A stretch of DNA of 45,703 nucleotides. Origin: a virus. Positions 4,801-25,818 of this stretch are shown here, piece after piece. A program made the translations under genes and the position numbers. Below the pieces are notes generated by a model that saw only the letters and a program-made list of their open reading frames with translations, was not told where the DNA came from and did not search any database. The DNA lies in the IMG/VR virus record IMGVR_UViG_3300042691_009163, positions 1 through 45,703 of that record, one strand, 5' to 3'. Numbering within the stretch: position 1 is the first letter of the stretch; each line of letters opens with the position of its first letter.

Positions 4801-7800
4801 CAAATTTTAGCATACGGTGATTATAGAGACGATTTAATTCTTGAACTTGAAAAAAGAATTTACAACAATATAAAAATTTCTTATGATACTAGTATCTTTG
4901 ATATAAATGATTTTTTACCAAGATACGGAACTGAAACAGCATATTCAATTTCTGAATTTAATGAAGTATTATCAGTATATTTTTATAACTGGGCTAATTT
5001 AATTGAACAAGATTTTACAAAACAAATAAGCTATGACGGTGCTGATTCAAGAACTTATAACTATCGAGAGATGTCAACTCCTGATGGTGTAACACCTCTT
5101 CCAGGTTATTGGAAAGGGATTCATAGATGGATGCTAGGAACTGATAGACCTAATATTTGTCCATGGGAAATGTTAGGATATAGTGAAGAACCTTCTTGGT
5201 GGAAGGAAGTTTACGGCCCAGCTCCTTATACAAGTAATAATTTGATTTTGTGGGACGATTTAACAAATGGTATTATTAGAAAACCTGGCACACCGCCAAC
5301 ACAAAATAAAAAATATGTTCGTCCTTTCTTGAAAGGCCATTTGCCTGTTAATGAAAATGGAGAACTAATAAGTCCTTTAGAATCTGGGCTTGCATTGGGG
5401 GCTATTACAAATTCAACAGCAGGAGATTTTGTATTTGGTGATGTTAGTCCAGTTGAAAGTGCTTGGAGACGCAGTAGTCATTATCCGTATAGTATATTGA
5501 TTACATTACTTTTAACACATCCTTCAAAAACATTTGGATTACTATTAGATAGATCTCGTATTGTTCGCAATTTAGCAAATCAACTTGTTTACAAAGATAC
5601 TGGACTTAGAATTAAGCCTTCAGATATTTTATTACCAAGCATATACTCCAGTGAATTTAATGTTAAAACTAGTGGAATTATTAATTTTATTATTGATTAT
5701 ATTCAAAGTGATAACTTAAAATCTTACGATCAATACTTGTATGACTTAAAAAATCTTCAAGTTCGATTAACTTATCGTATTGGCGGTTTTACAAGTAAAG
5801 AAAAATTTAAATTACTACTTGATAGTAAAACACCTCTAACAACCGGTAGTGTATTTGTGCCTGAAGAAGACTATGATATAATCTTAAATTCTTCAAGTCC
5901 AATAAAGAAAATTATTTACAGTGGTGTCATTGTTACTAAGTTATCTGACGGATTTACAGTTAGAGGATATAGTAAAACACAACCGTATTTTAAAAAATAC
6001 AATTTTACAAAAAATGGCATTTTAATTAATGTAGGCGGTATTTCGGAAAGTTATACTAATTGGACAACTAACTCGCAATACTCTGCTGGCAAAGTAGTTG
6101 CTTTTAATAATAGATATTATCGAGTTAAAACTTTACATACCACAACAGATTCGTTTAACCCAACTTACTATACTCCATTGCCTTCTCTTCCAATTATTGG
6201 CGGCCGCGATGCATTTTTTAGACAAGCCTGGGATAAAACAGAAGAGGTTGTAGTTCCTTATGGAACAAAATTTAAAGAAATACAAGATATTGTAGATTTC
6301 TTATTAGGTTATGGAGAATACCTAAAAGACCAAGGATTTATATTTGATAATTTTAATTCGCAACTAGGTGCAATTACAAATTGGGAAACTAGTGCTAAAG
6401 AATTTTTATTCTGGACTACACAAAATTGGAGTAGCGGACAAGACAAGTGGGTTGATTGGATAGCGAATCAACCTGTTAATTTTGGAGATATTGTTCGATA
6501 TAACGGAGATTATTACAGGGCAATTAATACCTTAGAGCCGGCATTACTCTTTAATCCAGACGATTATTTAAGATTAGACGGTTTAAGTTCTATTGGAAGT
6601 AGTGTAATTAGTTTAAGTCCAGCGGCTTCTAATTTAACATTTACTCCTTCATTGTCTGTTGTAGATGACATCCGAAATCCGTTTAACGGTTATGAAATTT
6701 TTAAAGTTGATGGATCCCCAATAGCTCCAAATTTCCTTAATAATTATAGAGATGAAAATTCTGTTAGTTACACGCCTGTGCAAGACGGAATTTATGGCGC
6801 AGTTTTTTATCTAGTGCAAAAAGAACAAGTTGTAATTTTAAAAAATACTACATTATTCAATGACACTATCTATAGTCCTACAAGTGGATTTAGACAAGAA
6901 CGAATTAAAATTGCTGGATATGTAAGTAGCGATTGGAAGGGAGATTTTAACGTTCCTGGATTTATTTTCGACCAAGCTGTAATTCAAGAATGGGACGAGT
7001 GGACAGATTATTCTCTAGGAGACATTGTCAAATACAAACAGTTTTATTATACTGCTAAGAACTTTATTACTGGTAAAAGTGTGTTTGAAGCTACAGACTG
7101 GATCAAATTGGATAAGAAACCAAATTCTCAACTATTACCTAACTGGTCTTATAAAGCAAGTCAATTTTCTGATTTTTATAGTTTAGACAGCGATAATTTT
7201 GATGCAAATCAACAGACTGTTGCACAACATTTAATTGGATATCAAAAGCGTCAATATTTAAGCAACATTATTCAAGATGATGTTAGCGAATTTAAATTCT
7301 ATCAAGGAATGATAGTTGAAAAAGGAACTAAAAATGTTCTTAATAAATTATTTGATGTGCTTAGTGCTGACGGACAAGAAAGTGTAAAATTTTATGAAGA
7401 GTGGGCAGTTCGTGTAGGACAATACGGAGCAAGCGGAAGTTTTGAAAATATTGAGTTTATTATTGATGAACAATATGTTAAAAATAATCCACAAGGGTTT
7501 GAACTTGTAAATCAGTTTGATAATTCTGTTGTTGATTTTATTGTTCGACAGACACCTAATGATTTGTATTTAAAACCTATTGGTTACAATAATAATCCAT
7601 GGCCGCTATCAACTTCAAAAACATCATATTTAAGAACTCCAGGGTATGTTAGATCTGGAGATGTTAAATTTACTTTAAAAACTTTTGACGAAATTCTTAA
7701 TCAGGATATCACAGATTTTGAAGAAGGCAATTGTGTTTGGGTTGGATTTGAAGGAAGAGAATGGAATGTTTACAAATATGTTCGTCTTGATTCTGTAGTT

Positions 7801-10800
7801 GTGAATTTAGAATATAAAACAAATAAACTAATTTTAACTTTAGCTGACGACATACTAGTTGATGTAGGTAATTATTTAGGCATCGATCAAGCACTGTCTT
7901 ATAATGGATTTTTTAAGATACAATCTATTGTAGGAAGGATTATTACTCTTGAAGCAACCTTCCCAGATCAACCAAAAGTATTCACATATCAAGATAGAGT
8001 AACAATAAGTTATTTTACTTCAGTAAGAACAAGTTCTATTGATATAGCTGATCAAAAAACAGTATTTCCATTAGTTGACGGTGACCTATTATGGACTGAC
8101 GACGGTGGTGACGGCAAGTGGGCAGTATGGCAACATATAAACGTTTATTCTAAACATGAAATAGTTAATTCCTCTCCGCAAAATGGTTTATTTTATGGTA
8201 GACAACTTTTATTAAATCCTCCTAGTACAATTAGTATTATAACTACTAATCAAGGAGAAGCAGTTGTTTATGACAAAGCCTCGCCTACTGCTTCTTGGTT
8301 GCAAAGACAAACAATAACAGCACCTTTTATATCTACAAGTACTGGATTTGGATATTCAGATACAGCAGATTCGTTAACTGGAGATGTAATTTCTTTATCT
8401 TCAGACAGTACATGGTTTGCTTCTGGAACACCACTAGCATCTAGTGTTTGCAGTCATTATATAGGTGCATGGAATTCTGCAACGTCATACACAGTTGGTC
8501 AGATAGTTGTTCAAAATTCAATACCATATGTGGCAGTAGCAACATCAACTAATAAAAATCCTTTAACAATATCTAATTCTTATACTGGATTAACTGGAAC
8601 TGCTTTGGTTGGAGCAGGTACTGGAGCAATTTTTAATGTAACAACTAATAAAACAAATTATTCAGTAACCATTAGTGATCCAGGAAATTCATATGCGGCT
8701 GGAGACACTATACGAATTTTTGGTACATCTTTAGGAGGCGCTGCCCCAGCTAACAATCTTACAATTAAAGTAACTTCGATAGTTGGTGGTCTAGCTGTAG
8801 GTCCAATTGCTGCAATATCAGTATCGGGCAATGCAAAAATTTATTGGAAACAAATTCCTTATATTCCTGTTGATTCTGCAGGTTCTAATTCAACACTAGA
8901 TGAACAAGGTGTTGTTTCAATATACAAAAAAGATGCTAATAATATATTTTCTTTAGTATCAACTATATTAAGTCCACTACCAACAAACAATCAAAAATTT
9001 GGATCTAGTTTAGTTTTTGGCGAAAACACATTATTTGTTGGCGCCAGTGGACATAACAATAATAAAGGAATTGTTTATAGACTTGATTATAAGACAGTTG
9101 TTGAAGTTAGTACTTCTTATAACCCAACTGGAAGTGCAGGAACTACTGTAGTTTTAACAAGTACTGCCGGTATTGAAGAAGGTATGTATTTGCAAGGTAC
9201 AGGATTTACTAGTGGACAATATGTTTCGCAAGTTATTCAAGAATCTAATTCAATAATAATAAGTGCAGAGCCTGATTCTACTCCATCAGGAAGAATTGAT
9301 TTTACAACTACTGGATGGAGATATAATTTTGATAATATTTTAGAAAATGTATCTTTACCTAATTATAGTAATTTTGGATCAGTATTGTCTATTAGTTTAG
9401 ATAATACAACACTTGCGGTATCTACTACTGGAGTTGATCAGCCTCTTCAAGATCCTTCAGTACCAGGTAAAGTTTTTGTTTATAAAAAATCTAATGATTC
9501 TTATGACTTATTCCAAACAATTAATAGCACTGAATTTGGATTTGGTACAAGTGTAACAGTATCTAATACAGGAGAATATATTGGTATTTCTTCCGTATTA
9601 GTTGATGGTTCAAAACTTGATCAAGGAGCAGTTTATGTTTATCAGTTAGTTGATGATGAATACACTTTACATCAAGAGTTATACAATTCACGACCAGAGA
9701 TTGCTGGATTCTTTGGAACTAAAATTTCTTTTATGAACGACTATGAAACATTAGTTGTTTTTAACAAAGGTTCAGATAACATCATTAAAACTAAATTTGA
9801 TTTAGGAGCAACAACTTTTGACAATAACCTAACAAAAATTTATGATTTAATTGAAGACAACGGAAGAATTGACATTTATGATAGATATGCATCAAAATGG
9901 ATTTATAGCGAAAGTTTAGAAAACACCAACGATGCCTTGGCAGGATATAGCAATGGTCTAGCTGTAGGATCAAATCAAGTTCTTGTTGGTGCACCAAATG
10001 CGCTAGATCAAGGATACAAATCAGGAAAAGTATACGAATACAGAAAACCTAACGGAAAATTTAGTTGGTTAATTTACAGAAAAGAGAATGATCGTATTGA
10101 CCTTAATAAAATTAAAAGAGTCTTCTTATATAATAAATCTACAAATAGATTAGTTTCTTATCTAGATGTTATTGACTCAACACAAGGAAAAATTCCAGGA
10201 ATAGCTGATCAGGAAATTAAATTTAAAACGTTCTATGATCCTGCAACATACAGTGTTGGAGATAGTTCAGTAAAAGTTGACGACGGGATGGCATGGACAA
10301 AAAATCAAGTTGGAACATTGTGGTGGGATTTACGAACTGCTAAATTCTACGATAGCCACGATACAGATTTAGTTTATAGAAACAGTACATGGAATACAAT
10401 ATTTCCAGGAGCAAGTATTGACATTTATGAATGGGTTGAAACAAAACATTCGCCAGAAAAATGGAATACTTTAGCAGACACAGAAGAAGGTATAACTGCT
10501 GGCATTAGTGGAACAAGTTTGTATGGAAATAATGTATATTCGTTAGTTAGAAAATATGACAGTGTTGCAAAAAGTTTTAAAAACACATATTATTTCTGGG
10601 TTAAAAATAAAAAGACTATTCCAAATGTAACCGGTCGAAGTATGTCAGCAATTGACGTAGCAACACTTATCGAAAATCCACGAGGATATGGTCACAAATA
10701 TATTGCATTAACAAGTTCTAATTCTTTTAGTCTTGTTAATGTACAACCTTTACTAGAAGATAAAGATATAATTCTTAGTGTGGAATATTGGACAAGCCCT

Positions 10801-13800
10801 AAAACAGACGAAAATATTCACAGTGAATGGAAAATTATTAATAATAGTGCAGAAACAACGATCCCAGCAGCTATAGAACAAAAATGGTTTGATAGTTTAT
10901 GCGGTAAAGATAGTCAAGGAAGATTAGTCCCAGATCCGTTGTTACCTCCTAAATTAAAATATGGAATAGAAAATCGTCCACGACAGGGTATGTTTGTAAA
11001 TCGATTTGAAGCATTAAAACAATTTATTGAAGAAGTTAACAACAAGTTAATTAATCAGTTAGTTGTTGACAACGCAGATTTATCTAAACTTGAATCTTAC
11101 GAAACTGAACCAAGTACTATTACTGGTTTATATGATTCAACAGTTGATACAGACGCAGAATTACGATTTGCTAATATAGGAAATTTTGAAAAGCCACAAG
11201 TCAGCCCAGTAATTGAAAATGGCAGAATAGTTAAAATTGATATCATTAATCGAGGAAGAGGTTATTTAATTGCTCCATACTTTACAATTTCTGGTTCAGG
11301 TACAGGTGCAATAATTCGAGCAATTATAGATGTTAAGGGACAGATTACTGGTGCCGATATTATAAACGAAGGTTACGGATATACATCTAACACACTTGTA
11401 ACTTTAAGAAACTATAGTGTTCTAGTTCATAGTGATTCTGTTGCTAACGGTAACTGGAGTATCTATACCTACGAACCAACTACAGAAACATGGTCAAGAG
11501 TTAGAAGTCAATCATACAACGTTAGAAATTATTGGAATTATGTAGACTGGTACGCTGCTGGATATAATCAATTTACATCAATAGATTATTCTGTAGTTTC
11601 ATTATCTAACTTACAAGATTTAGAATCGTCAATTGGACAAACTGTTAAAATAAGAGTTACAACAGATGGCACTTGGCTATTACTTGAAAAATATTCAAAT
11701 TCATCAAGTATTGACTGGACACAAAGTTACAGAGTAGTTGGTAAAGAAAAAGGAACAATACAATTTGTTTCAGAATTATATAGTTTTTCAAACAGTGAAT
11801 TTGGTTTTGATGGATCATTGTATGATTCAGCAATATTTGATAACTCAGCATCTTCAGAATTACGTATTATTTTAGATACACTTAAAAATAATATTTTAAT
11901 AGATGACATGAAAGAAATCTATTTAAACTTATTTTTTAATAGTGTTCGCTATGCTCATAACGAGCAAAATTATATTGATTGGATTTTTAAAACTAGTTTT
12001 GTTAAAGCTCAACATAGTGTTGGAGAACTAAAACAAAAAGTTACTTATAATAGTGATAATTTAGAAAACTTTGAAGATTATATAAATGAAGTTAAACCAT
12101 ACAGAACAAAAGTTAGAGAGTATGTAAGCACCTATTCTAAAGTTGACAAAAATCAAATTGCTCCAACAGATTTTGATTTGCCACCAGTATACGAAAACGG
12201 TACACTTTTACCTATAACAACTTATATTCTAAATGGAATAATTCAAGCTGACAATAATAAAATTTTGTCTTATCCTTGGAAACATTGGTACGATAATGTT
12301 GGGTACTCTATTGTTTCATTAGATATAGTTGACGGTGGATCTGGCTACAGGTCAGCTCCAACAGTTCGAATACTTAGTGAATCCGGTACAGGAGCAAAAG
12401 CAAGAGCATTTTTTACTAACGGAAAAATTAATAGAGTAGTACTTTTGTCAAATGGTTCAGGTTACCTAAGCGCACCTAGGATTGTTGTTGAAGGCGGCCT
12501 AATTGATGGCGGCACTCCAGCAAAAATTGTTGCAAAAATAGGTAATGGAGTAGTGAGAAATAATTTAATTAAAATAAAATTTGATAGAATTTCACAAAAA
12601 TATTTTATTACTAATTTAGAAGAAACTGAAACATTTGTAGGAAACAACATAGTTTCCGGATCCCGACTACAGTTTCTTTTAAAATGGGCGCCAGATGTAA
12701 GAATTGGAAAAGCTACAGTTTTGGTTGGAGAAGTTGGCAAACAAGTGGAAGTTTTAAGATCCAGCTATAAATTATCTGTTGTTAAATCTATAAACAACGG
12801 ACATACTAATTACAGCGGATCGATTACTTTTGATACTGCACCTGCTAGGGGATCTGTTATTACGGTAACTTACATCAAAGATTGGTCTATACTAAATGCT
12901 GCTGACCGAATTCAATATTATTATGACCCTGCGACAGGAGAGTTAGGTAAAGATTTAGCTCAGTTAATGACTGGTATAGATTACGGCGGAGTAAGTGTCC
13001 ACGGATTAAATTTTGATATTTCGTCTGGTTGGGATAGTGTTCCTTATTATACTGACAAGTGGGCAAGTTTTGATAGTACATTTGATGATTATGTAGTAAC
13101 AGTTGCTGCTAATACTCATTCTTTTACTTTGCCTTATGTTCCAGCTGATGGTACTGAAATGAACGTATACTACGTTGGAAAAAATATTGAAACTTATGCT
13201 GGTGACGGGTTTACATTAATTTATAATTTTGATGTTAATGACGTTTATCCACCAACTGCAACAGTTTCTACTACTAAAACATTTGATAATGTAGGATCTA
13301 TAAATGTTGCTGGTAGTGATATAATAAAATTATCAAGCACTACTAACATTAACATTGGTGATATCTTAACAATTAGTCCTGATGTAGCACAAACAATTGG
13401 ATACGAAACAAAAGTTGTTAGTATTATTAATAGTACAACAGTAAAACTTAATCAAATTCTTTTTAAGAATATTGTCAACGGAACAACAGCAAAATTTACA
13501 AGAACACTGATAGATCCAACAGATTGTACAATCAATCCAAACGGAACAGTATTTTTACAAGATCCTATACCAGTAGGATCAACATTGCGTATTGAAGCGT
13601 ATTTTAATCCAATTCGATTAGACGATCCAAACTTTACAGTTACTGGTGCAGCAGTTGCATCTCTTGATTTGCTAGAATCTCAATACCAAGTTTTAGTTGT
13701 TGAGCAAAATTCATTGATTAACAATAAAAATGCAGTCGAGTCTAATTTGGAAATTTACAATGATCAATTAGTAAGTCAACAAGCAGAACTAAATGCGTTG

Positions 13801-16710
13801 TTAGTTGTTCTTGACGGTTTAACCCCTAGCGATCCGTTGTATGCGCCAACAGTAAGCCAAATTAATGTTCTTGTAAACACCGATATTCCTAATACAGAAA
13901 CTCTTATTAGCGGTGCAACAAGCAACCTTAATACAATTAATGCAGATATCAGTACTAATACTTTGGCAAGATCAGCAAAACAAACACAAATTAATAATGC
14001 AACAACATATCTTAATAGTTTAACACCATTAGCAAATACAACGGCTATTATGCAAACTATTATTTCTAATGGTGTTCCAGATAATTTATTAGATCCAACA
14101 TATAAGACATTTAGTATTCCTGGAACTTTTGCAGTGTATGATGGAGATCAATTCATCTGGCGTCGAGCAGAAAGTGATGGGTCAGTACTACCTCAAGAAC
14201 AAGATTATGATACATCATTGAGTGGTGGAGAATTTTTAAACAATTCTTTAACTAGTGCAACTGGTTTATCTGCTGACGATATCATTGTTGATGGTGACGG
14301 ATTTGTAACTCCTACAAGCAGTCCAGCAACAGAAGAAGTTGTTCCTGGACAAGTAGTTGATTCAGTTGCTATTAAAGTATTTGATAGACCAAGCACTGGA
14401 TCTGCTAACATTAGAGTTGACAGTTATGTTGCTGATGGAACACAAACAGATTTTGTTATCTCTCAACAACCAAATAATCAAACAGCTATCATTGTTAAAT
14501 TTACCAACGGATTTAGAGATCCATTAACTGAAGTGTTGTCATCAACATCAACCATTAAAACACGAGTAGATGACTATACTGTTGATTATCAAAATCGCCT
14601 TGTTAAATTTAATTCTGCACCGCCTCAAGGCGAGTTAATTAGTATTTTTAGTTTTGGATTTAACGGTTCTGGAATTTTAGATTTAGATTATTTTATTGGT
14701 GATGGATCACAAACTGAATTTGTAACTAAAGCACCTTGGATTGAAGATGTTAACTACCTAGTATATGTTAACGGCCAGCCAGCAGAACCAGGAACTCCTG
14801 CATTATTTAAAACAGATGCCAGTTACGAAAGTTCTAATAGAATAGGATTAACCTTTAGCGTTCCACCGTCAGTAAATTCTCTAATAAATTATGTTATAGT
14901 TGAAGGAAACGAACAAACTTATTCTACTACAAAAACACAACGGATCCAAGGCAACGGCACAAATGTTTACAATTTAGAATATATTGTTGGCAATAAATTA
15001 CCTGCAGAATCTAATATGCTTGTAAGAGTTAACAATAAATTCTTAAAAGGTCCAAACAACAGCTATTATACAATCACAGGTACTCGTGTTAATTATGCTA
15101 TTGATTCTGTTAAATTCTTGCCATACTCCTTGTCAGCAAACGACATCTATGTGTATGCAGCTGGGGAACTATTAACATCAGGAATTGATTACGTTGTTGA
15201 ACTTAGTGGAATTAATATAAAGATTACTCAGCTAGTTCGTAAAAAATATTTAAATCAAGAATTAGTCATTAGTATTAGACAAGATCAAGAATATACATAT
15301 ATTCCACCAAGCGGAACTAACTCAGCAAAAATTGAATTTTTAAAAGATTATGAAACATCAGATTTGATTGAAGTTGTAAGTTCTTACAAACATGACATTT
15401 TAGATATACAAAGAACAGGTGTTAACGTTACTTCAAACTTTGAGTTAACTCCAGACACACCTGAATTTTATAATTACAAAGGAGTTGCTGGCGGAGTTAT
15501 CCAACTAGATAGAACTGTTATTGATGACAATTATGTTTGGGTAATTAAAAATGGCTACCTTCTAACACCAAGTGCCGATTTTAAATTAAATGAAGATCGT
15601 AAGAGCATTAAATTAGCGTTCTATCCAGATTCAGCTGATGAGTTTACAATTATAACTTACGGTAGTCAAGTTTTAAAATCTGGAGTTTCTTATATGCAGT
15701 TTAAAGATATGTTGAATAGAACACACTTTAAACGCTTAAATGCTAATAAACGAACTGTACTAGTTAAAGATTTAAAATATGTAGACACATATATTGAAGT
15801 TGAAGATGCAAGTAATTTTGATACACCTAGTATCCCAAATAACAAACCAGGTATTATTGAAATACGAGGTGAACGTATTGAATTCTTTACACTAACACCT
15901 AAGGTTGAAGGAACAGTAACAACTTACTTGCTTGGACAATTACGCAGAGGAACATTAGGCACTGGCGTAAGTAAAGTTCATAAAGCAGGTAGTTATGTAC
16001 AAGATATCGGTGCAAGTGAAACAATTCCATATGTTGAAAATGTAACAATAGAACAGGTCAAATCTGACGGAACTAATATTGTTCCATTGACGTTTGCTCC
16101 AACAAAATCAGACGACACTTGGACATATTCAACTGGTTACACAAGCTCAATACCAACCGGGTACGGGCAAGCTAACGACATTGAAGTGTTTGTTGGCGGT
16201 TATAGTTCTATTCCTTGGACTGGTGGTGTTAACTATGCAGTTAATGATATTGTTGAAGTTGGAAGTTACACATTCCGTTGTATAACTGAACACACAAGTT
16301 CAGATAACTTTAAAACAGATAAATCTTATTGGACTTTCTTTGTTGGAAATATTCGTTTAAAGAAAAAACCATACAAAGTTCATAATGTAGATAATGCTCC
16401 AGAAAGTCCTGAAGGTGATGTACAGTTAGATGCAGAATTTGCTGTAAATGGAACCAGTAATCAACTTCGATTAACACATCAATTAGCGTTTGGAACAAGA
16501 GTAACCGTTGTTAAACGAACAGGAACTGCATGGGATTCAACTACAAACATACTAGATGATGATAGTAAAATTGCACGTTTCTTAAAAGCTGTGCCTGGTG
16601 TCTGGTATGCAAATATTGGTAAATATGAAAGCAACGCAGGAATTCCGTCTAGTTTTGACAGCGAAAACGGAACTTTTGACAGCAACTCGATAACGTTCGA
16701 CCAGGAATAA
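1804..16710 (+). CDS. Giant (4,968-residue) virion structural protein, tail-associated
   Basis: A single uninterrupted 14.9-kb gene. The N-terminal third is Trp/Tyr-rich, with motifs such as YYWLPYGP (about residue 140) and PWEMLGY plus WWKEVYGPAPYTS (about residues 1120-1145), which I associate with large structural proteins of marine myophages. Residues about 2180-2760 hold several FG-GAP-like units (FGSSLVFGENTLFVGASG, GSNQVLVGAPNALDQG), suggesting a beta-propeller. GxGYxxAPxxxIxGxGTGA-type units occur near residues 3150-3200 and 3510-3565. A predicted coiled coil lies at about 3950-4080. The last thousand residues carry repeats of the form VxVNGxxLxxGxDY, typical of fibre beta-sandwich modules. 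No signal peptide or enzyme motif was seen. It lies between another virion gene and fibre genes. A long tail, baseplate or fibre-scaffold role is inference. Confidence 0.8.
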   Translation: MADNTNPNGGKTSSSELLPKYYRTDSNKKFLQATIDQLIQPGTVKKVNGYVGRKNSKSTTGSDIFVNAPTTSRQNYQLEPGLVIKDNLDNTTFFKDYQDYINQLGVFGANVKNHARLNEQEFYSWDPHINWDKFVNFQQYYWLPYGPDIIQITGTQQGIASTYKIKIREEADNNTYVFYPNGLIENPSIKLYRGQTYRFEIDSPGNPFSIKTIRVAGPAHRYDTENITGYAVEQGVIEFIVPENSPDLLYYVSETDVNLGGVFEILSADENSFLDLTTDLIGKKTFTLSNGTALSNGMKVSFVGTVIPESYKTGQYYVEGVGTSITLIPESKLEIVSPYSTSESVLFDNEPFDTVPFGDSTTFSGSQDYIVINRQSGDYNPWSRHNRWFHKTVIEASAAYNGKIASIDQTARAVRPIIEFEPNLKLFNFGTRSITDVDLIDTYTTDVFSKIEGQLGYNIDGINVSQGQRILFAADTDIRVKNKIFKVNFLLLDGIRRIHLEEQDLPIANDCVLVRQGLSNQGLSYWYNGTTWNQSQQKLNLNQPPLFDIFDSNKNSLGDKTVYDGSTFIGTKLFSYKVGSGTTDRSLGFALSYKNIDNIGDIVFNFNIASDIFQYKNVSYVIDKKINDGYLLKTLPTGELEYINGWQLSKASNNQPAIRVYKDSNKVNNFDIDIFDNIKNLDDLKVRIYVNGLRLDKNAWTVVDGGYYKKIVLAKDILTTDILTIKAFSKQPINDNGYYEIPIGLQNNPLNEDIADFTLGEISSHVDSIVDNIQSEFSGVFPGISNLRDLGNITCYGTRFVQHSGPASLSAYHFTSQNNNIIRAIETSQNDYIKFKRNFIIISEKLGVDADPVRQVNLILQEIAKDKPKNSPYYFSDMAPFSGGIRSDLLVFDYRIKTYPLTTTFNLDSISSKAVLVYLNGTQLLYGKDYTFDDQGFVVISATLANDDEITIYEFENTNGSFIPSTPTKLGIWPKYEPKIYLDTSLVTPRTMIQGHDGSQILAYGDYRDDLILELEKRIYNNIKISYDTSIFDINDFLPRYGTETAYSISEFNEVLSVYFYNWANLIEQDFTKQISYDGADSRTYNYREMSTPDGVTPLPGYWKGIHRWMLGTDRPNICPWEMLGYSEEPSWWKEVYGPAPYTSNNLILWDDLTNGIIRKPGTPPTQNKKYVRPFLKGHLPVNENGELISPLESGLALGAITNSTAGDFVFGDVSPVESAWRRSSHYPYSILITLLLTHPSKTFGLLLDRSRIVRNLANQLVYKDTGLRIKPSDILLPSIYSSEFNVKTSGIINFIIDYIQSDNLKSYDQYLYDLKNLQVRLTYRIGGFTSKEKFKLLLDSKTPLTTGSVFVPEEDYDIILNSSSPIKKIIYSGVIVTKLSDGFTVRGYSKTQPYFKKYNFTKNGILINVGGISESYTNWTTNSQYSAGKVVAFNNRYYRVKTLHTTTDSFNPTYYTPLPSLPIIGGRDAFFRQAWDKTEEVVVPYGTKFKEIQDIVDFLLGYGEYLKDQGFIFDNFNSQLGAITNWETSAKEFLFWTTQNWSSGQDKWVDWIANQPVNFGDIVRYNGDYYRAINTLEPALLFNPDDYLRLDGLSSIGSSVISLSPAASNLTFTPSLSVVDDIRNPFNGYEIFKVDGSPIAPNFLNNYRDENSVSYTPVQDGIYGAVFYLVQKEQVVILKNTTLFNDTIYSPTSGFRQERIKIAGYVSSDWKGDFNVPGFIFDQAVIQEWDEWTDYSLGDIVKYKQFYYTAKNFITGKSVFEATDWIKLDKKPNSQLLPNWSYKASQFSDFYSLDSDNFDANQQTVAQHLIGYQKRQYLSNIIQDDVSEFKFYQGMIVEKGTKNVLNKLFDVLSADGQESVKFYEEWAVRVGQYGASGSFENIEFIIDEQYVKNNPQGFELVNQFDNSVVDFIVRQTPNDLYLKPIGYNNNPWPLSTSKTSYLRTPGYVRSGDVKFTLKTFDEILNQDITDFEEGNCVWVGFEGREWNVYKYVRLDSVVVNLEYKTNKLILTLADDILVDVGNYLGIDQALSYNGFFKIQSIVGRIITLEATFPDQPKVFTYQDRVTISYFTSVRTSSIDIADQKTVFPLVDGDLLWTDDGGDGKWAVWQHINVYSKHEIVNSSPQNGLFYGRQLLLNPPSTISIITTNQGEAVVYDKASPTASWLQRQTITAPFISTSTGFGYSDTADSLTGDVISLSSDSTWFASGTPLASSVCSHYIGAWNSATSYTVGQIVVQNSIPYVAVATSTNKNPLTISNSYTGLTGTALVGAGTGAIFNVTTNKTNYSVTISDPGNSYAAGDTIRIFGTSLGGAAPANNLTIKVTSIVGGLAVGPIAAISVSGNAKIYWKQIPYIPVDSAGSNSTLDEQGVVSIYKKDANNIFSLVSTILSPLPTNNQKFGSSLVFGENTLFVGASGHNNNKGIVYRLDYKTVVEVSTSYNPTGSAGTTVVLTSTAGIEEGMYLQGTGFTSGQYVSQVIQESNSIIISAEPDSTPSGRIDFTTTGWRYNFDNILENVSLPNYSNFGSVLSISLDNTTLAVSTTGVDQPLQDPSVPGKVFVYKKSNDSYDLFQTINSTEFGFGTSVTVSNTGEYIGISSVLVDGSKLDQGAVYVYQLVDDEYTLHQELYNSRPEIAGFFGTKISFMNDYETLVVFNKGSDNIIKTKFDLGATTFDNNLTKIYDLIEDNGRIDIYDRYASKWIYSESLENTNDALAGYSNGLAVGSNQVLVGAPNALDQGYKSGKVYEYRKPNGKFSWLIYRKENDRIDLNKIKRVFLYNKSTNRLVSYLDVIDSTQGKIPGIADQEIKFKTFYDPATYSVGDSSVKVDDGMAWTKNQVGTLWWDLRTAKFYDSHDTDLVYRNSTWNTIFPGASIDIYEWVETKHSPEKWNTLADTEEGITAGISGTSLYGNNVYSLVRKYDSVAKSFKNTYYFWVKNKKTIPNVTGRSMSAIDVATLIENPRGYGHKYIALTSSNSFSLVNVQPLLEDKDIILSVEYWTSPKTDENIHSEWKIINNSAETTIPAAIEQKWFDSLCGKDSQGRLVPDPLLPPKLKYGIENRPRQGMFVNRFEALKQFIEEVNNKLINQLVVDNADLSKLESYETEPSTITGLYDSTVDTDAELRFANIGNFEKPQVSPVIENGRIVKIDIINRGRGYLIAPYFTISGSGTGAIIRAIIDVKGQITGADIINEGYGYTSNTLVTLRNYSVLVHSDSVANGNWSIYTYEPTTETWSRVRSQSYNVRNYWNYVDWYAAGYNQFTSIDYSVVSLSNLQDLESSIGQTVKIRVTTDGTWLLLEKYSNSSSIDWTQSYRVVGKEKGTIQFVSELYSFSNSEFGFDGSLYDSAIFDNSASSELRIILDTLKNNILIDDMKEIYLNLFFNSVRYAHNEQNYIDWIFKTSFVKAQHSVGELKQKVTYNSDNLENFEDYINEVKPYRTKVREYVSTYSKVDKNQIAPTDFDLPPVYENGTLLPITTYILNGIIQADNNKILSYPWKHWYDNVGYSIVSLDIVDGGSGYRSAPTVRILSESGTGAKARAFFTNGKINRVVLLSNGSGYLSAPRIVVEGGLIDGGTPAKIVAKIGNGVVRNNLIKIKFDRISQKYFITNLEETETFVGNNIVSGSRLQFLLKWAPDVRIGKATVLVGEVGKQVEVLRSSYKLSVVKSINNGHTNYSGSITFDTAPARGSVITVTYIKDWSILNAADRIQYYYDPATGELGKDLAQLMTGIDYGGVSVHGLNFDISSGWDSVPYYTDKWASFDSTFDDYVVTVAANTHSFTLPYVPADGTEMNVYYVGKNIETYAGDGFTLIYNFDVNDVYPPTATVSTTKTFDNVGSINVAGSDIIKLSSTTNINIGDILTISPDVAQTIGYETKVVSIINSTTVKLNQILFKNIVNGTTAKFTRTLIDPTDCTINPNGTVFLQDPIPVGSTLRIEAYFNPIRLDDPNFTVTGAAVASLDLLESQYQVLVVEQNSLINNKNAVESNLEIYNDQLVSQQAELNALLVVLDGLTPSDPLYAPTVSQINVLVNTDIPNTETLISGATSNLNTINADISTNTLARSAKQTQINNATTYLNSLTPLANTTAIMQTIISNGVPDNLLDPTYKTFSIPGTFAVYDGDQFIWRRAESDGSVLPQEQDYDTSLSGGEFLNNSLTSATGLSADDIIVDGDGFVTPTSSPATEEVVPGQVVDSVAIKVFDRPSTGSANIRVDSYVADGTQTDFVISQQPNNQTAIIVKFTNGFRDPLTEVLSSTSTIKTRVDDYTVDYQNRLVKFNSAPPQGELISIFSFGFNGSGILDLDYFIGDGSQTEFVTKAPWIEDVNYLVYVNGQPAEPGTPALFKTDASYESSNRIGLTFSVPPSVNSLINYVIVEGNEQTYSTTKTQRIQGNGTNVYNLEYIVGNKLPAESNMLVRVNNKFLKGPNNSYYTITGTRVNYAIDSVKFLPYSLSANDIYVYAAGELLTSGIDYVVELSGINIKITQLVRKKYLNQELVISIRQDQEYTYIPPSGTNSAKIEFLKDYETSDLIEVVSSYKHDILDIQRTGVNVTSNFELTPDTPEFYNYKGVAGGVIQLDRTVIDDNYVWVIKNGYLLTPSADFKLNEDRKSIKLAFYPDSADEFTIITYGSQVLKSGVSYMQFKDMLNRTHFKRLNANKRTVLVKDLKYVDTYIEVEDASNFDTPSIPNNKPGIIEIRGERIEFFTLTPKVEGTVTTYLLGQLRRGTLGTGVSKVHKAGSYVQDIGASETIPYVENVTIEQVKSDGTNIVPLTFAPTKSDDTWTYSTGYTSSIPTGYGQANDIEVFVGGYSSIPWTGGVNYAVNDIVEVGSYTFRCITEHTSSDNFKTDKSYWTFFVGNIRLKKKPYKVHNVDNAPESPEGDVQLDAEFAVNGTSNQLRLTHQLAFGTRVTVVKRTGTAWDSTTNILDDDSKIARFLKAVPGVWYANIGKYESNAGIPSSFDSENGTFDSNSITFDQE

Positions 16711-16713: not shown

Positions 16714-17751
16714 ATGGCAAAAAAAGTAATTAGTGTAGGAGTAACAGCAAACGACGGAACGGGCGATACTTTAAGATTCGGTGCCCAAAGCATTAACGAT
16801 AATTTTACAGAGCTATACAACGCACTTGGCGGAGAATCTGGTGCGCCTTTAAGTATTGTTTCTAAAATCATAGCTGGTAACGGTATTATCGTAAGCAATC
16901 CTACAGGCGATATATTAGTTACAAACAAACCAGCTACAGAAGAAGAACTTGGTGGAATACGTATCGGAACAGGTATTAGCATTGACGAAGAAGGGGTCGC
17001 TAGTGTCAATGTATATGAATTGCCAAAAGCCAGCAGTACAATTTTAGGCGGCATTAAAGTAGGCGACAGATTAAGCATTGATGCCCAAGGAGTCCTTAGT
17101 GCAGATCCTGGAGCATATACACTACCTAAAGCAACTGGATCAGTGCTGGGTGGAATTAAAATAGGATCCGGTCTATCAATAGATGCAGGCGGCATTGTTA
17201 GTGTAAACTTTGGACAGTATAGTTTGCCTGTAGCAACTGATACCGTGCTTGGCGGCATTAAAGTGGGCGACAGGCTTACAATAACCGACGGAGTACTAAG
17301 TGCAGATGTTCAAGCGGTAGGAATTGCTGATAGACTTACGGCTAGCGATAAAACACTGGTGCTTGACACAACAGGACGTATTAGTTATCCAGGCAATTCA
17401 GTACACCAGCAGTCAACTTTATTTTCTTCAATTCCTCCAAACACTGATACGGTTGTTTATACAACAAATGGAAACTATGTACGAGGAGTTAAAGCAGTTG
17501 TGTTGGTTGAAAAATGGACAAACGGTTATGAATTACAAGCCTGCGAAATTATTGGAGTGATGGATGAATCATTGAATATATTTCACATATCTGTATATGG
17601 TATTGTGTACTCAGGTGCTTCTCCAATAGTTACATTTGATAGCCAATATACTTTATTAACAGGTGATTTTGAAATTACAGCAAGACCAGTAAGCACAGTT
17701 GATACTCTTAAATTAAGAATTCAAGTTACTGAATTAGACGGAACAGATTAA
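16714..17751 (+). CDS. Fibre-like virion protein with four LGGIK repeats
   Basis: The 345-residue product starts 3 bases after the giant gene. The N-terminus carries ANDGTGDTLR followed by NDNFTELYNALGG, a motif I associate with marine-phage tail or fibre proteins and probably an attachment module. Residues about 78-197 contain four tandem copies of a unit built on LGGI(K/R)(V/I)G-x-x-(L/I)(S/T)I, beginning near residues 79, 111, 145 and 179 (period 32-34), like the shaft repeats of trimeric phage fibres. The C-terminal 140 residues are a non-repetitive beta-rich domain with no hit I can name. Role as a tail fibre or tail-fibre connector is inferred from repeats and neighbours. Confidence 0.75.
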   Translation: MAKKVISVGVTANDGTGDTLRFGAQSINDNFTELYNALGGESGAPLSIVSKIIAGNGIIVSNPTGDILVTNKPATEEELGGIRIGTGISIDEEGVASVNVYELPKASSTILGGIKVGDRLSIDAQGVLSADPGAYTLPKATGSVLGGIKIGSGLSIDAGGIVSVNFGQYSLPVATDTVLGGIKVGDRLTITDGVLSADVQAVGIADRLTASDKTLVLDTTGRISYPGNSVHQQSTLFSSIPPNTDTVVYTTNGNYVRGVKAVVLVEKWTNGYELQACEIIGVMDESLNIFHISVYGIVYSGASPIVTFDSQYTLLTGDFEITARPVSTVDTLKLRIQVTELDGTD

Positions 17752-17764: not shown

Positions 17765-20700
17765 ATGGCCAATAAACCATTTGAAATACAAGACGGAATA
17801 AAAATACAAGCCGGAGATGACATTGTTGATAATAATGACGATTCGGTGTTAGTTGGAGGCGGCTCTATAACAGTTGGTGACGGAGTTGGAACAAGTGTTT
17901 CAAATGTTACTGAAATTTTAATCAACGGTACTATTACAGAAATAGAACCAGGATTAGTTGGCATCAGTGTTAGCGGTACCACTACAGATCAAAATATCTG
18001 GATACAGACATTTGAGTCAGATACTCCTGCAACAGATATTCCAGGAAGTGCTAACAGTGTTGAATATGATGCTGACGGTAATATTATTGCTCTGTTTGTA
18101 CACTACAATCCAGCAGGCGGCGACAACTATACTTCTTTGGCTAAGTTTACCAGCACTGGCACAAAGTTATGGCAGGTTAGATACGCTGGTACAGGAAGCA
18201 CAGACGGCTGGGGCGTAGCGGTAGATGCTGGAGTAATTTATGTTACCGCAGAAATAACTGATCCCTCAGGCTATGATAGAACAACAGTAACACAACTAAA
18301 TCTAGCCAACGGTAACATCAACTGGACCAAAATCTACGACTTTGGTTACGCGAGTACTGGTGGTGTTATTGATGCCTACGACGGCAATGCCGTCTTTGTT
18401 GGATATGCTAATACTGCCACAGATAACCAAATAACCGTTGTTAAAATTTCAGGCGTAGACGGCTCAGTAATTTGGGCCAAAGGTCTAGACGGACAGGGAT
18501 ATGATGAAGCCTATGGTATGGCTGTTGGACCTAGCGGTGAAGTAGTGGTCATTGGTTATATGAGTCAACTAGGTGAAGCCGGTGATACAGAAGATCACAT
18601 GTTAGTGGCCAAATACAGTAGTAGTGGAACGCTAACTTGGCAAAAGGCTGTACTATTTGACACAGGTTATAGCTGTCAAGGAGCAGATGCTGATATAGAT
18701 AGTCTTGGTAATATCTATGTAGTTGGACAGTACCAACAGGACGATGGATTAGGCGGCTATGACACCGCAATGAATCTAATCAAGTTTGACTCATCTGGCG
18801 TAGCACAGTGGAGTCGTCGTGTAGTAGGTGACTGTCAAACATTTGCTACCAGCGTAGTAGTAGGCCCAGACGACTACTTATATCTATCAGGAATTACTGG
18901 TAATGAGGCCACCAGTGACTTTATCTGTGTTGTGGCCAAGTATCAACAAAACGGACAAGTAGCCTGGCAACGTCTACTAGACAATGTTACCACTTGGAGT
19001 TTTGCAGGCGGTTTCTACGCTGCCACCAGTGGCGGTAGCAGTATCGCTGTCAAGAATGGTTATGTAGCGATTGGTGGCGGATTTGGCGATCCTGGCACAG
19101 GTGCTTTTGCTATGATGGCACAATTTGATACAGCAGGTACAATGTTTGCTGTTGATAACTGGGACTTTAAACAAGCCTCATTCTCAGGAGTGTTGAATAA
19201 TACAGCCAGCGATATTACTGTAAACGATGCTCTTAAAACAGATGGTGATCTAAGCGGTGACATTAGTGTTAGCGTTTTTAGTCCTGATGTTGACACTACC
19301 AACTTCCTAGTACCTACAATATATAGGATAGGTGATGCGCCAACTGGCGATATTACCTTTTATGGTGTAGAAATACGAGGTTCTACAAATAACAATCCTC
19401 TTGGCAGTATTAGTTTAGTTCCTAATCCAACGTTAAAAGATGATGGACAATATTTAGAAATTTATCCAACTACTGCAAATGATGCTCCACACATTCACCT
19501 TGCCGCAGGCACAGGCCCTACTGGCACTCCAGGAGACCTAATCTTAGGAAACGACAATTATCACGTTGATGTTAATCATACCGGAGAAGTTAAGATCCGT
19601 GCATATGATTCTGATACTTCTACTACCTATAATTGGCAGTTTGAAAATGATGGTACATTAATCCTGCCTAACACTGGGGTTATCCGTGTAGAAGAAGGTA
19701 CTGGTACAAGTCAATTCAAAACAGTATTGGGTGTAACTCATTCTGACACTCGAAACACCAGTAATTGGACTTCGGCCACATATATTGCTGAAGGCGGCGG
19801 CGGTAGAATAGAAATTGTAGATCCTACTCCAAGTTTTAGACAGTATCTAGCATTAAGGCTAGATCAGTCTGTGACAACAACTATTCAAATTAATGGAAGT
19901 ATTTTATTGACCTATGGTTATGTTGATACTAGTCCTTTAGATAGAGTCTACTTGTATGTCAATGAAGCACCTGCTACAGATCCAACTACTGTCACTGACA
20001 TTGTGATATCTACCGTAGCTGAAAACCGCGTGTTGGCTTCAGATCAGAATAATAGGCTGGATTTTATTTCTGGCAGCGGCTGGACTGTAAACATTGAAAG
20101 TAAATGGACAGGGGACGTCAACATTAGAGCAGGAGATGACATTCTTTTAAAAGCGGGCGATAAGCAAAGGAATGATAGTACTGGTGGTGATATAGATATA
20201 CGAGCAGGCAGTGGCGGTAATTCTGATCACGACGATGTTGGTGGCGTTGGCGGAAGCATAGATATCGAAGGTGGCTTTGGCGGCATAGCCAGTACCTACT
20301 ACAACGCTAACAACGGTGGTTCGGTTAATATTCGAAGTGGCACAGGTGGTGACGCTAATACAGCGGGTAGTAAACTAGCAGGTAGTGGTGCCGACTTAAA
20401 TTTATATGCCGGCCAAGGCGGGTATACTTATGGTGATCCTACTCTAGGAAATTCAGGCGGAGATGTTAATATCTATGGTGGAGATAGCACCAACGATACA
20501 GCAGGCGGAGATATTTTAATACAGGCAGGTGTTGGTGGAGCAACCACAGGTGGCGGAGCCATTACACTGAGAACCAAGACAACAGATAATGCTGATCGTA
20601 CATGGGTATTTGACAATCAAGGCAAGACCACACTTCCTGGTGCTGTTATTAAAGGAACAGTGGCTAAAACTGGCGTGGCTTCGGCGAGCATTGGCTCAGG

Positions 20701-21262
20701 ACAAATAGCCACAGTTACGCCAAGTGCTACGAATAATCCTGCTCTAACTCCAGGTATATATGCCGATATAACTCTAACAGTTGGCACTTACTTTACGGTA
20801 ACTGTCACTGTGATAACAGGTGGTGATATCACAGTTGAGGTCACAGCCAGCGGCGCTGGATTCCAAATTGGCGATACTGGAATGGTACCTGGTTCTGTTA
20901 TTGGCGGAACCACAGGCGTAGATGACATAGTTTTAACTGTGGCCACATTGACTAACATTGTACAGGGAACTGCTATAGACCTAACCAAATCTGTTAACAA
21001 ACTCACAGACGGTGTCTACTCATTGGCCAACGGTGTTGAAGGGCAGATCGTGTATCTTGTTCCGCAATCTGGAACAGTTCCTAGTGATGTGAATGTCAAT
21101 GTAGCCAACTACAGAATTGATGGTTCCGCAGGTACTGATGGATTATTATTTCCATTTAGAATATTTAATGGTGCTAATGCTAGTTATTTTGATAGCGGTG
21201 CATTCTGTACATTGATATTTACAGACGGTGCTTGGCAACAGAACGGCGGTAGCTGGGATTAA
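17765..21262 (+). CDS. Large fibre/adhesin-like protein: beta-propeller plus glycine-rich repeats
   Basis: A 1,165-residue protein. After a short N-terminal domain, residues about 75-470 form repeated blades (for example GSANSVEYDADGNIIAL, ADADIDSLGNIYVVGQY) resembling SBBP/YD-type beta-propeller repeats. Two copies of a W-x-F-(E/D)-N-(D/Q)-G-x-x-x-LP unit, near residues 620 and 945, are of a kind common in marine phage fibres. Residues about 780-935 are strongly glycine-rich, with repeated GGDIDIRAGSGG and GGDVNIYGGDS units, reminiscent of the polyglycine regions of phage receptor-binding adhesins. The tail is beta-rich. From about 18,000 on the DNA is visibly richer in G+C than its neighbours (26 of 60 bases at 18901-18960 against 13 of 60 at 3601-3660). 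A host-recognition role is inference. Confidence 0.75.
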   Translation: MANKPFEIQDGIKIQAGDDIVDNNDDSVLVGGGSITVGDGVGTSVSNVTEILINGTITEIEPGLVGISVSGTTTDQNIWIQTFESDTPATDIPGSANSVEYDADGNIIALFVHYNPAGGDNYTSLAKFTSTGTKLWQVRYAGTGSTDGWGVAVDAGVIYVTAEITDPSGYDRTTVTQLNLANGNINWTKIYDFGYASTGGVIDAYDGNAVFVGYANTATDNQITVVKISGVDGSVIWAKGLDGQGYDEAYGMAVGPSGEVVVIGYMSQLGEAGDTEDHMLVAKYSSSGTLTWQKAVLFDTGYSCQGADADIDSLGNIYVVGQYQQDDGLGGYDTAMNLIKFDSSGVAQWSRRVVGDCQTFATSVVVGPDDYLYLSGITGNEATSDFICVVAKYQQNGQVAWQRLLDNVTTWSFAGGFYAATSGGSSIAVKNGYVAIGGGFGDPGTGAFAMMAQFDTAGTMFAVDNWDFKQASFSGVLNNTASDITVNDALKTDGDLSGDISVSVFSPDVDTTNFLVPTIYRIGDAPTGDITFYGVEIRGSTNNNPLGSISLVPNPTLKDDGQYLEIYPTTANDAPHIHLAAGTGPTGTPGDLILGNDNYHVDVNHTGEVKIRAYDSDTSTTYNWQFENDGTLILPNTGVIRVEEGTGTSQFKTVLGVTHSDTRNTSNWTSATYIAEGGGGRIEIVDPTPSFRQYLALRLDQSVTTTIQINGSILLTYGYVDTSPLDRVYLYVNEAPATDPTTVTDIVISTVAENRVLASDQNNRLDFISGSGWTVNIESKWTGDVNIRAGDDILLKAGDKQRNDSTGGDIDIRAGSGGNSDHDDVGGVGGSIDIEGGFGGIASTYYNANNGGSVNIRSGTGGDANTAGSKLAGSGADLNLYAGQGGYTYGDPTLGNSGGDVNIYGGDSTNDTAGGDILIQAGVGGATTGGGAITLRTKTTDNADRTWVFDNQGKTTLPGAVIKGTVAKTGVASASIGSGQIATVTPSATNNPALTPGIYADITLTVGTYFTVTVTVITGGDITVEVTASGAGFQIGDTGMVPGSVIGGTTGVDDIVLTVATLTNIVQGTAIDLTKSVNKLTDGVYSLANGVEGQIVYLVPQSGTVPSDVNVNVANYRIDGSAGTDGLLFPFRIFNGANASYFDSGAFCTLIFTDGAWQQNGGSWD

Positions 21263-21314: not shown

Positions 21315-21923
21315 ATGCAGAGTAAAGACGTAACGGGCGTTCATATTGAAGGGCACATTAAGATTCATAACCCAGAAACGGGTGAAGTGCTCATCAATAA
21401 ACGTAATGCCATTCATTATGAAAATATCAGTATAGCCCTAGCACAGAGTTTAGCCAATAGCGGCCAGGGTTTTATTTATGAAATGGCTTTTGGCAACGGC
21501 GGAACTGCCGTTGACCCAACTGGTATTGTTACTTACTTAACTCCAAATTCAACAGGATCTAATGCTAGTCTTTATAACGAAACATATTCTAAAGTAGTTG
21601 ATGATCGCAGCAGTAATAATGTAGACCCAACACGTAATTTTATTGAAACACGTCACGTAACCGGCACAAACTATACTGATGTTTTTGTAACTTGTTTGTT
21701 AGACTACGGTGAGCCTAGCGGACAACAGGCGTTTGACAACTCAAATGACAACACAGGTCTGTATATTTTTGATGAATTAGGACTTAAAAGCTATAGTTCG
21801 ACTGGAAATAGTTTATTATTAACTCATGTAATATTCCATCCTGTACAAAAATCATTGAACAGACTTATTCAAATTGATTATACTGTGCGTATTCAGAGCT
21901 TAACTGGTCTAGCGGGAGTTTAA
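21315..21923 (+). CDS. Virion-associated protein of unknown function
   Basis: A 202-residue product, preceded by a purine-rich AAAGAGAG ribosome-binding stretch. It has no signal peptide, membrane segment or enzyme motif. The sequence opens with a polar HIEGHIKIHNPETGEVL stretch and is beta-prone throughout, with a YEMAFGNGGT motif near residue 55 that I associate with small structural proteins of large tailed phages. It is flanked by the glycine-rich adhesin-like gene and three paralogous fibre genes, and ends 3 bases before the first of these. A structural, fibre-adaptor or baseplate role is inferred from context only. Confidence 0.65.
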   Translation: MQSKDVTGVHIEGHIKIHNPETGEVLINKRNAIHYENISIALAQSLANSGQGFIYEMAFGNGGTAVDPTGIVTYLTPNSTGSNASLYNETYSKVVDDRSSNNVDPTRNFIETRHVTGTNYTDVFVTCLLDYGEPSGQQAFDNSNDNTGLYIFDELGLKSYSSTGNSLLLTHVIFHPVQKSLNRLIQIDYTVRIQSLTGLAGV

Positions 21924-24113: not shown

Positions 24114-25774
24114 TGAGCTATATTATTAATAAAACTGATGGTTCTGTTTTAACTGAAGTTGTTGATGGAACAATTGATCAAACAACAACAGATATAACAC
24201 TTGTAGGTAAAAATTCAACAAGTTACGGCGAATTATTTAATGAAAACTTTGTTAAAATTTTAGAAAATTTTGCTAATACAACACAACCAAACAATCCAGT
24301 TCAAGGACAACTGTGGTATGACACAACAGAAGGTCGTTTAAAAGTATATGATGGATCTGGATTTAAAGTCAGCGGCGGAACTATAGTAAGTGATAGTGCT
24401 CCAAGCGGAATTTCAGCAGGCGATTTATGGATTGACAGTAAAACTCAGCGTTTATACTTTAATGACGGATCAGCAAATTTATTAGCAGGCCCAATCTATA
24501 CAGCTCAACAAGGAATATCAGGTTGGAATGTTGTAGACGTTATTGATACAAATAATATTAATCACACAACATTGTTTTTATATTGCGGACAAACGTTACT
24601 TGGTATTTTTAGTAGTACTCCAACAGCATTTACACCGTTAAATCAAATTCCAGGATTTACAGGTACTATCAAAGTAGGATTTAATGTTGCAGACATTGCA
24701 GGTTTTAGATTTAATGCTCCTGCTAGTCAAGCAGACGCTCTTGAAGCAGAAGACGGATCTTTAAAAAATGCACAAAGTTTCTTACAAGTAGATCCAGCAG
24801 ACGGATATACGGTGGCCAATGGCACTATTAGGGTTTATAATTCTACTCCGCTGGTACTAGGAACTAATCAAAACACAGAATTTAAATATGATTCAAATGC
24901 CTTCCAAATAAATTCTAATGTTCCTAATCAAAATTTTAGTTTACAAAGCCTTACAACAAGTTTAAAACCAAGTATTTTTGTTAACGCACAAAACGAATAT
25001 GTTGGAATATATACTGGAAACCCAACTTCTACATTAGATGTAAATGGTAATACACGAATTCGAGGCAATTTAACTGTTGAAGGTGCAACAACAACTATTA
25101 ATACTACAAACGTTCAAATTGAAGATCTGTTAATTGAAATAGGTAAAGTAGATACTCCAACAGATTCAACTGCAAACGGTGGTGGTATTAGTCTTGCAGG
25201 TCTAACAACAAAAACACTAACTTGGGGACTATCACAAAATGCATGGAATTCAAGTGAAAATATTAATCTAGTTCCTGGAAAAGCATATAAAATTAACAAT
25301 TTTGAAGTTTTAACTCAAACACAATTAGGAAGCACAGTTTCTAGTGCTCCAGGATTAAACAGTATTGGTGCGTTAGTTGAATTACAAGTTGATAATATTA
25401 ACATCAACGGAGATACTATCAAATATAGTAATATTTCTTCGCCTGACGGAGATGTTATACTAGAACCAAAAGGAACAGGAACTGTAAATGTAAGTTCAAA
25501 AAAGATTTCTAATCTCGCAACACCAACTAACTCTACAGATGCAACAAATAAAAATTATGTTGATACTAAAGTTAGATCCGCACCACTTGGTTTTAGCGTT
25601 AATATTGGAGTGCTAACGGAAGCTCAGCTAGCATCTCAAATTTTAATTAAAATATTTAAACTTGATGATCATGAAGATGACACTATTTTAAATGTTTATT
25701 GTTTAGATACTGGAATTTCAAAAGAATACAAAAAGATTGGACCAGCATGGGTTTATCAAGCAGACATCGTGTAA
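24113..25774 (+). CDS. Tail fibre-like protein, paralogue 2
   Basis: A 553-residue product. Residues about 1-140 repeat the module of the preceding gene (NENFVKILENFANTTQ, NPVQGQLWYDTTEGRLKVYDG, GDLWIDSKTQRLYFNDG). The C-terminal half differs from it: LDVNGNTRIRGNLTVEG, then NVQIEDLLIEIGK, then a LATPTNSTDATNKNYVD stretch near residue 470, all motifs I know from marine-phage fibre proteins. There is no collar domain. It starts on a TAATG overlap with the collar fibre and probably shares its transcript. Shared head plus different tail suggests duplication followed by C-terminal replacement. Precise position in the virion is unknown. Confidence 0.75.
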   Translation: MSYIINKTDGSVLTEVVDGTIDQTTTDITLVGKNSTSYGELFNENFVKILENFANTTQPNNPVQGQLWYDTTEGRLKVYDGSGFKVSGGTIVSDSAPSGISAGDLWIDSKTQRLYFNDGSANLLAGPIYTAQQGISGWNVVDVIDTNNINHTTLFLYCGQTLLGIFSSTPTAFTPLNQIPGFTGTIKVGFNVADIAGFRFNAPASQADALEAEDGSLKNAQSFLQVDPADGYTVANGTIRVYNSTPLVLGTNQNTEFKYDSNAFQINSNVPNQNFSLQSLTTSLKPSIFVNAQNEYVGIYTGNPTSTLDVNGNTRIRGNLTVEGATTTINTTNVQIEDLLIEIGKVDTPTDSTANGGGISLAGLTTKTLTWGLSQNAWNSSENINLVPGKAYKINNFEVLTQTQLGSTVSSAPGLNSIGALVELQVDNININGDTIKYSNISSPDGDVILEPKGTGTVNVSSKKISNLATPTNSTDATNKNYVDTKVRSAPLGFSVNIGVLTEAQLASQILIKIFKLDDHEDDTILNVYCLDTGISKEYKKIGPAWVYQADIV

Positions 25775-25787
25775 CTAGCCAAAACAG

Positions 25788-25795: not shown

Positions 25796-25818
25796 TACGT
25801 AATAAGGAATAAGGGAAA

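Follow-up and report, generated by a model that had tools for sequence, protein, structure and literature searches.

The closest described systems to the one considered here are the RBP adapter and branching systems, represented by gp37 of K1-5, gp66/gp63.1 of G7C, TSP1-4 of CBA120 and those of Klebsiella phages (PMC6872550). Like the arrangement proposed here for the present locus, they have a virion-fixed connector with a docking domain, a following fibre that joins by a short conserved N-terminal peptide, and host-binding parts that are exchanged horizontally. In T4, gp9 is bound to gp7 through its N-terminus, and its C-terminus carries the long tail fibre in a coaxial arrangement (PMC3004832). 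The Alteromonas phages A5 and V22 are distantly related and have homologous host-recognition genes (PMC10579305). A further point of comparison is the enzyme CylK (7ron, 7fh6), whose active site lies at a domain interface and depends on an N-terminal Ca-binding domain there (PMC8916777).

The window examined here is a 45.7 kb virus fragment carrying an open reading frame at 17765-21262 that the first-pass annotation had called an adhesin-like gene, and the frame, on the + strand and encoding 1165 aa (p4), was confirmed. In our reading, which we hold with some confidence, p3 and p4 form a two-gene tail-fibre cassette of a jumbo myophage, in which p4 would be the distal, receptor-facing arm, docked by a plug into a socket on p3 and exchanged by recombination. 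The architecture, the mosaic relatives, the genomic slot, the evidence of exchange at synonymous sites and the pairing of socket and plug genes are direct observations. Adaptor-docked, recombining phage adhesins are a known kind of system.

The slot between p2 and p5

The neighbours of p4 match genes of jumbo phages of the RaK2/Atu_ph07/Phosso/PA5oct type, and, as in RaK2/Atu_ph07-like jumbo myophages, a homologous baseplate giant precedes p5. Some of the IMG/VR relatives sit on contigs of 199-400 kb. The slot and its borders are as follows.

1804..16710, + strand: p2, giant baseplate/virion structural protein of 4968 aa (phrog_10938, PHROG E=0), upstream border of the slot
16588..16707, + strand: p2 C-terminal tail, carrying three repeats of the FD type (SSFDS..TFDS..ITFDQ)
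16714..17751, + strand: p3, connector of 345 aa with a T4 gp9/gp10-like N-terminal domain (PF07880)
17389..17748, + strand: socket domain X, the C-terminus of p3 (aa 226-345), delimited by alignment
17765..21262, + strand: p4, mosaic adhesin of 1165 aa, from the ORF call
21315..21923, + strand: p5 (phrog_11259), a conserved gene that bounds the slot on its downstream side

As in T4, the order is baseplate wedge, large wedge protein, gp9/10-type connector and fibre: p2 follows a baseplate wedge gene (phrog_10646), and p3, placed between the wedge proteins and the fibre genes, matches PF07880 (E 1.1e-7; 32.5 bits against a cut-off of 25) and a PHROG described as baseplate wedge tail fiber connector. 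Unlike the T4 chain, p2 reaches 4968 aa, p4 has no detected similarity to a T4 fibre, and the PF07880 match is N-terminal in p3. The giant gene also contains two CBM_5_12 chitin-type carbohydrate-binding stretches (E 2.4e-12), an odd feature for a baseplate protein.

The p5 protein is 58% identical to its homologue in Sinorhizobium phage Phosso and 53% to that of Atu_ph07. It adjoins the giant virion protein in those phages, following it within 30 bp in Phosso and after two short ORFs in Atu_ph07. Among the IMG/VR loci collected via p5 (designated here by L numbers), most distant relatives have nothing in the slot, 50-130 bp separating the giant protein from p5, and nearer ones have 0.3-8.6 kb there. 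Synteny and even conservation in distant relatives, which the first-pass annotation had named as counting against its view of p4, are thus not what is seen. The well-occupied slots of nearer relatives start with a gp9/10-N connector, which may stand alone (L013) or precede either a gene of the p4 type or a subtilase S8 (PF00082, E to 2e-24). Genes of the p4 type occupy this same slot in L003, L005 and L006; in L006 connector and p4 are fused into one protein of 1262 aa, and the slot of L003 additionally holds a LamG-like and a PP-loop protein. In L015, L019, L022, L038-L040 and L049-L056 a protease-like gene follows a connector with another C-terminal domain, and the two such genes examined are subtilases. 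A reverse-strand PP-loop/QueC-like gene (MYSGGLDSLGM...) lies just 3' of adhesin genes at L003:16437-17036 and in L012, L109, L131 and L142, as if it travelled with the adhesin cassette through several different phage contexts.

The C-terminal tail of p2 is correlated with the content of the slot. The FD repeats were seen only in relatives whose slot has a gp9/10-N connector, and p2 extends 30-41 aa past the shared domain in connector-bearing relatives versus 4-13 aa in empty-slot relatives that aligned cleanly, a few empty-slot loci aligning too poorly to judge. In L024 and L033, where the slot begins differently, the tail is 36 aa long and of another kind. We infer that the p2 tail docks p3; T4 offers a precedent for such a link and for a fibre seated on the C-terminus of the connector. 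The assembly is presumed to be trimeric.

Downstream of the slot, p6, p7 and p8 (21927-27339) are consecutive fibre genes whose N-terminal domains, about 100 aa long, are paralogous (about 70% DNA identity in blocks), and p6 carries a tail collar domain. Beside the tail cluster, at 28737-32544, several genes resemble glycosyltransferases (DxD motifs), and presumed radical-SAM QueE-like and FolE-like genes at 41206-42063 and 42866-43708 suggest a 7-deazaguanine pathway in the phage.

Modules of p4 and its relatives

The adhesin can be divided into the following parts.

17765..17857, + strand: plug, the N-terminal 31 aa (MANKPFEIQDGIKIQAGDDIVD...), 74% identical in L003; plug-type starts occur solely behind socket X
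17984..19204, + strand: CylK-like beta-propeller (aa 74-480), from a CylK profile match and a structure model
19331..19672, + strand: intermediate module (aa 523-636), shared with L004/L005 at 78% identity
20111..20572, + strand: Gly-rich GGxIxI block (aa 783-936), which probably forms the fibre shaft and varies or is missing among relatives
20687..20974, + strand: beta-rich domain preceding the tip (aa 975-1070), pLDDT about 90
20990..21259, + strand: conserved C-terminal tip (aa 1076-1165; VEGQIxYLVPQ...CTLIFTDGAWQQxGGSWD), found in many otherwise different adhesins

The propeller that had been read from the letters of the sequence was borne out at the level of fold, as aa 74-480 match the CylK profile (E 8e-14) and the model of this region (pLDDT 80) superposes on CylK, a seven-bladed propeller, with a TM of 0.69. 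Weaker fold matches include endosialidases, polysaccharide lyases and the phi11 receptor-binding device, and among viral structure models the same fold occurs in large structural proteins of T4-like cyanophages (S-PM2 Q5GQG3, ACG-2014h, S-ShM2) at 13-15% identity. Fold and variability suggest that the propeller may bind a host surface or receptor. That it acts instead as a lyase, glycosidase or depolymerase we consider rather improbable: the closest solved fold is an enzyme, glycan-active enzymes are among the matches, and a subtilase is another common occupant of the slot, but the glycan-enzyme matches are fold-level only (about 8-13% identity), and CylK is an alkylating enzyme whose active site requires the separate Ca-binding domain, a beta-roll (PMC8916777), whereas the p4 region modelled covers the propeller alone. 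The CylK profile match likewise spans the propeller, and p4, a phage fibre protein, has no Pfam family.

The Gly-rich block is likewise real, with 6 GGxIxI units in aa 761-965 compared with 0.3 in composition-matched shuffles (maximum 3). The C-terminal 650 aa gave a poor model (pLDDT 55) in which aa 975-1070 are the only confident part, and the Gly-rich part, modelled with low confidence, had no PDB match below E 0.5. A weak sequence match to an 'adenoviral fiber' chain in the PDB (E 0.013) and weak matches of p4 relatives to DUF2345, a domain of VgrG-type spikes, hint at a fibre-shaft fold and are not relied on here. Since the fused relative L006 lacks the block and retains propeller and tip, the block is more readily seen as a dispensable shaft or spacer than as an essential binding part. 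The tip is the most conserved part of p4, and for that reason more probably serves in folding or capping, or else binds something widespread.

Comparison with relatives shows that p4 is a member of a large mosaic adhesin family of uncultured phages in which starts, centres and tips are interchangeable. Scans with the propeller alignment returned 27 related stretches and scans with the C-terminal alignment 127, of which 80 were kept. In pairwise comparison L003 and p4 have aa 1-31 and 71-635 in common and differ in the C-terminal half. L005 and L004 match p4 at 78% over aa 523-635 and at 36% over the C-terminal part; they retain a p4-type start and tip and carry an unrelated propeller in the changed middle. 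L006 and L097 retain propeller and tip and have changed the start. One propeller family occurs behind plug, gp9/10-N (PF07880), Mtd_N (PF18454) and RKIV starts, and the same tip closes most adhesins of that family; Mtd_N, found in the relatives L097, L142 and L098, is absent from p4 by Pfam search. One part of the first-pass suggestion of a replaced centre therefore stands, as the centre is variable and relatives show block swaps; the other part, that the N-terminal 75 aa and the C-terminus resemble the rest of the cluster, was not upheld. No structural ORF in the window resembles either end, for which reason an origin of the p4 ends from adjoining genes was also rejected, and the N-terminus is instead a specific plug type found behind only one connector kind.

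Relatives outside uncultured phages were scarce. Pfam and PHROG searches with p4 gave no match and INPHARED no relative at E 1e-5; for the family as a whole PHROGs yielded one weak single-member match, and the only cultured-phage match of the propeller by tblastn was to S-RIM32 (E 1e-3). A bacterial origin of the propeller gained no backing from a scan of genome contigs, which found no relative, although degenerate patterns of this kind can miss distant homologues. The contig L002 is 100% identical to the window over 12.3 kb and ends at 18957, inside the propeller, which may reflect population variation at this point or merely the end of an assembly.

Base composition and lateral exchange

Raised G+C had been taken as a sign that p4 was recently acquired. 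The two counts offered for this, 26/60 at 18901-18960 and 13/60 at 3601-3660, are both exact, but the contrast is exaggerated because the stretch 3601-3660 is richer in AT than is usual for the giant p2, which averages 19.4 GC per 60 bases against 25.9 for p4 (43% G+C). Amino-acid composition alone does not account for the difference, as the GC3 of p4 is 0.285, whereas its amino acids would give 0.187 with the codon usage found elsewhere in the window (z 8.6) and 0.166 with that of the + strand structural genes (z 11.1). GC3 is high in the propeller and at aa 700-850 and aa 1000-1100, and at background in aa 1-100 (z 0.7), about aa 450-700, and the last 65 aa (aa 1101-1165, z 0.5). Since several minus-strand genes of the window and the conserved p5 (z 4.4) also have raised GC3, p4 is a compositional outlier among the structural genes and not across the fragment as a whole. 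Moreover, GC3 lies above local expectation in 82% of 82 family members from many phages (mean +0.049); composition therefore cannot date an acquisition or show that one was recent.

Identity at four-fold sites between the window and L003 is 0.46 for the backbone versus 0.65 for p4 modules (Fisher 8e-7), the corresponding values being 0.42 and 0.68 for L005 (Fisher 0.002) and 0.45 and 0.69 for L006 (Fisher 2e-10). The third positions of p4 are less AT-skewed, so chance identity should be lower there, which strengthens the test. In addition, the p4 sibling of L004 is 95% identical to that of L005 among different neighbouring genes, which in L004 include what we take to be a tail sheath protein, and the two siblings, 75% identical in their first part, reach about 100% identity beyond aa 400. 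Because synonymous sites of p4 modules are less diverged than the backbone and a 95% sibling occurs in unrelated phages, modules of the p4 family do move sideways between phages. These values and the module swaps support the earlier view insofar as it sees a mosaic adhesin that is exchanged horizontally and varies at its centre.

One recent horizontal acquisition of a foreign receptor-binding gene or centre by this phage would be in keeping with the GC3 of p4, far above that of the structural genes, and with the observation that p4 genes fit the codon usage of L004-type phages better than that of their own genomes (z 0.2 for p4 of the window), while the copy of L004 fits its own genome (z -0.7); the lower divergence of p4 modules relative to the backbone also agrees with it. 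We nevertheless think such an event unlikely, and an argument from G+C alone was dropped as the main reading, the GC3 excess being family-wide and present also in the vertically conserved p5. The closest propeller outside the same phage, that of L006, is only 86% identical, and L003, L005 and L006 hold p4-type genes in the same slot. Still harder to credit is the proposal that G+C follows from the type of gene, a Gly/Ala-rich adhesin with its own codon or expression selection, p4 being a vertically inherited, fast-evolving fibre. Codon positions 1+2 are indeed GC-rich, the excess at GC3 recurs through the family, and minus-strand genes of the window have similar GC3; however, the excess persists after amino-acid correction, synonymous identity exceeds that of the backbone in three pairs, near-identical siblings lie in unrelated contexts, and most distant relatives have nothing in the slot. 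On its own, then, a raised G+C of a fibre gene does not testify to recent acquisition.

The proposed joint between p3 and p4

The pairing of socket and plug genes is near-absolute. Plug-type adhesins begin with the motif MANKPFxIQ..., of which the p4 plug is a variant, and the plug alignment has a mean column identity of 87%. All plug-type adhesins found via the propeller or the tip have an upstream connector ending in X. A search from the plug alone gave 33 non-redundant loci, 32 of them with upstream sequence, and X was present in 32/32, although these loci are not evolutionarily independent; the stop of the X connector lies 9-17 bp from the start of the plug gene. X was upstream of none of 30 control adhesins with other starts. 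In the reverse direction, a plug gene came next in 29/41 non-redundant X connectors; in the other 12 the next gene was p5, another gp9/10-N gene, or others. X thus also exists without a plug partner, for example as a fibre end. A protein of cyanophage ACG-2014d matches the Mtd_N + X protein of L004 (166 aa, 29%), there as the start of a long fibre.

Connector N-termini vary (gp9/10-N, Mtd_N and several others) while X persists, and the adhesin bodies behind plugs are unrelated with X and plug still together. A second pair consists of a C-terminus ...VFYGSE followed by an RKIV start (9/9), and L263 and L239 chain the two joints in series as X - plug...VFYGSE - RKIV. In L108 and L287 it is a propeller adhesin that has X at its end, with a plug gene next in line, and in L006 the N-terminal part of p3 is fused to the body of p4 and X is absent. 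Physical docking of X and plug is what this pattern suggests. It could also be no more than gene order, socket and plug being co-transferred as one recombination unit without contact and p4 attached elsewhere or to itself; the genes are adjacent and so closely spaced that they would often move together, and X is also found alone. We judge this improbable, given that the pairing persists though connector N-termini and adhesin bodies change, that two orthogonal pairs exist, also in series, and that X is missing when p3 and p4 are fused.

In the docked arrangement that we favour, the C-terminal tail of p2 would hold the gp9/gp10-like N-terminus of p3, and socket X would receive the plug of p4, which would then present in turn the CylK-type propeller, a beta/Gly-rich shaft and the conserved tip. 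Joint and tip would stay conserved while the parts between them were swapped among phages by recombination, so that host-binding arms could be exchanged and the baseplate need not be rebuilt.

The conserved N-terminal peptide typical of fibres in RBP adapter systems is present here as the p4-type plug. Those systems, however, form side branches with T4gp10-like D2/D3 docking domains, whereas the proposed p3-p4 joint lies at the C-terminal end of the connector and X, compared by sequence, matches no Pfam T4gp10 family. In A5 and V22, host-recognition genes are also common to otherwise distant phages, but fibre and chaperone move together there, while here it is socket connector and plug adhesin, with internal swapping of modules. 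A profile search with X found no PDB chain at E<=1, at most one X member weakly matched any one PHROG, the plug had no match in 50,697 records of cultured phages, and neither part had a convincing PDB match. No description of these joints was found in the libraries searched.

It seems to us an even call whether such joints (X/KPF, VFYGSE/RKIV and possibly one on subtilase-bearing connectors) are mutually exclusive, each fitting its own partner alone, and constitute a portable, chainable assembly code by which entire receptor-binding arms travel as cassettes among uncultured phages with different backbones. The joints would offer a rule, readable from sequence, for matching fibres to their connectors in uncultured phages, where little is known of host range. 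Should they be real, adhesin arms from metagenomes could be assigned to virions and chained fibres put in order, and one could trace joint by joint how host-binding modules pass between unrelated phages.
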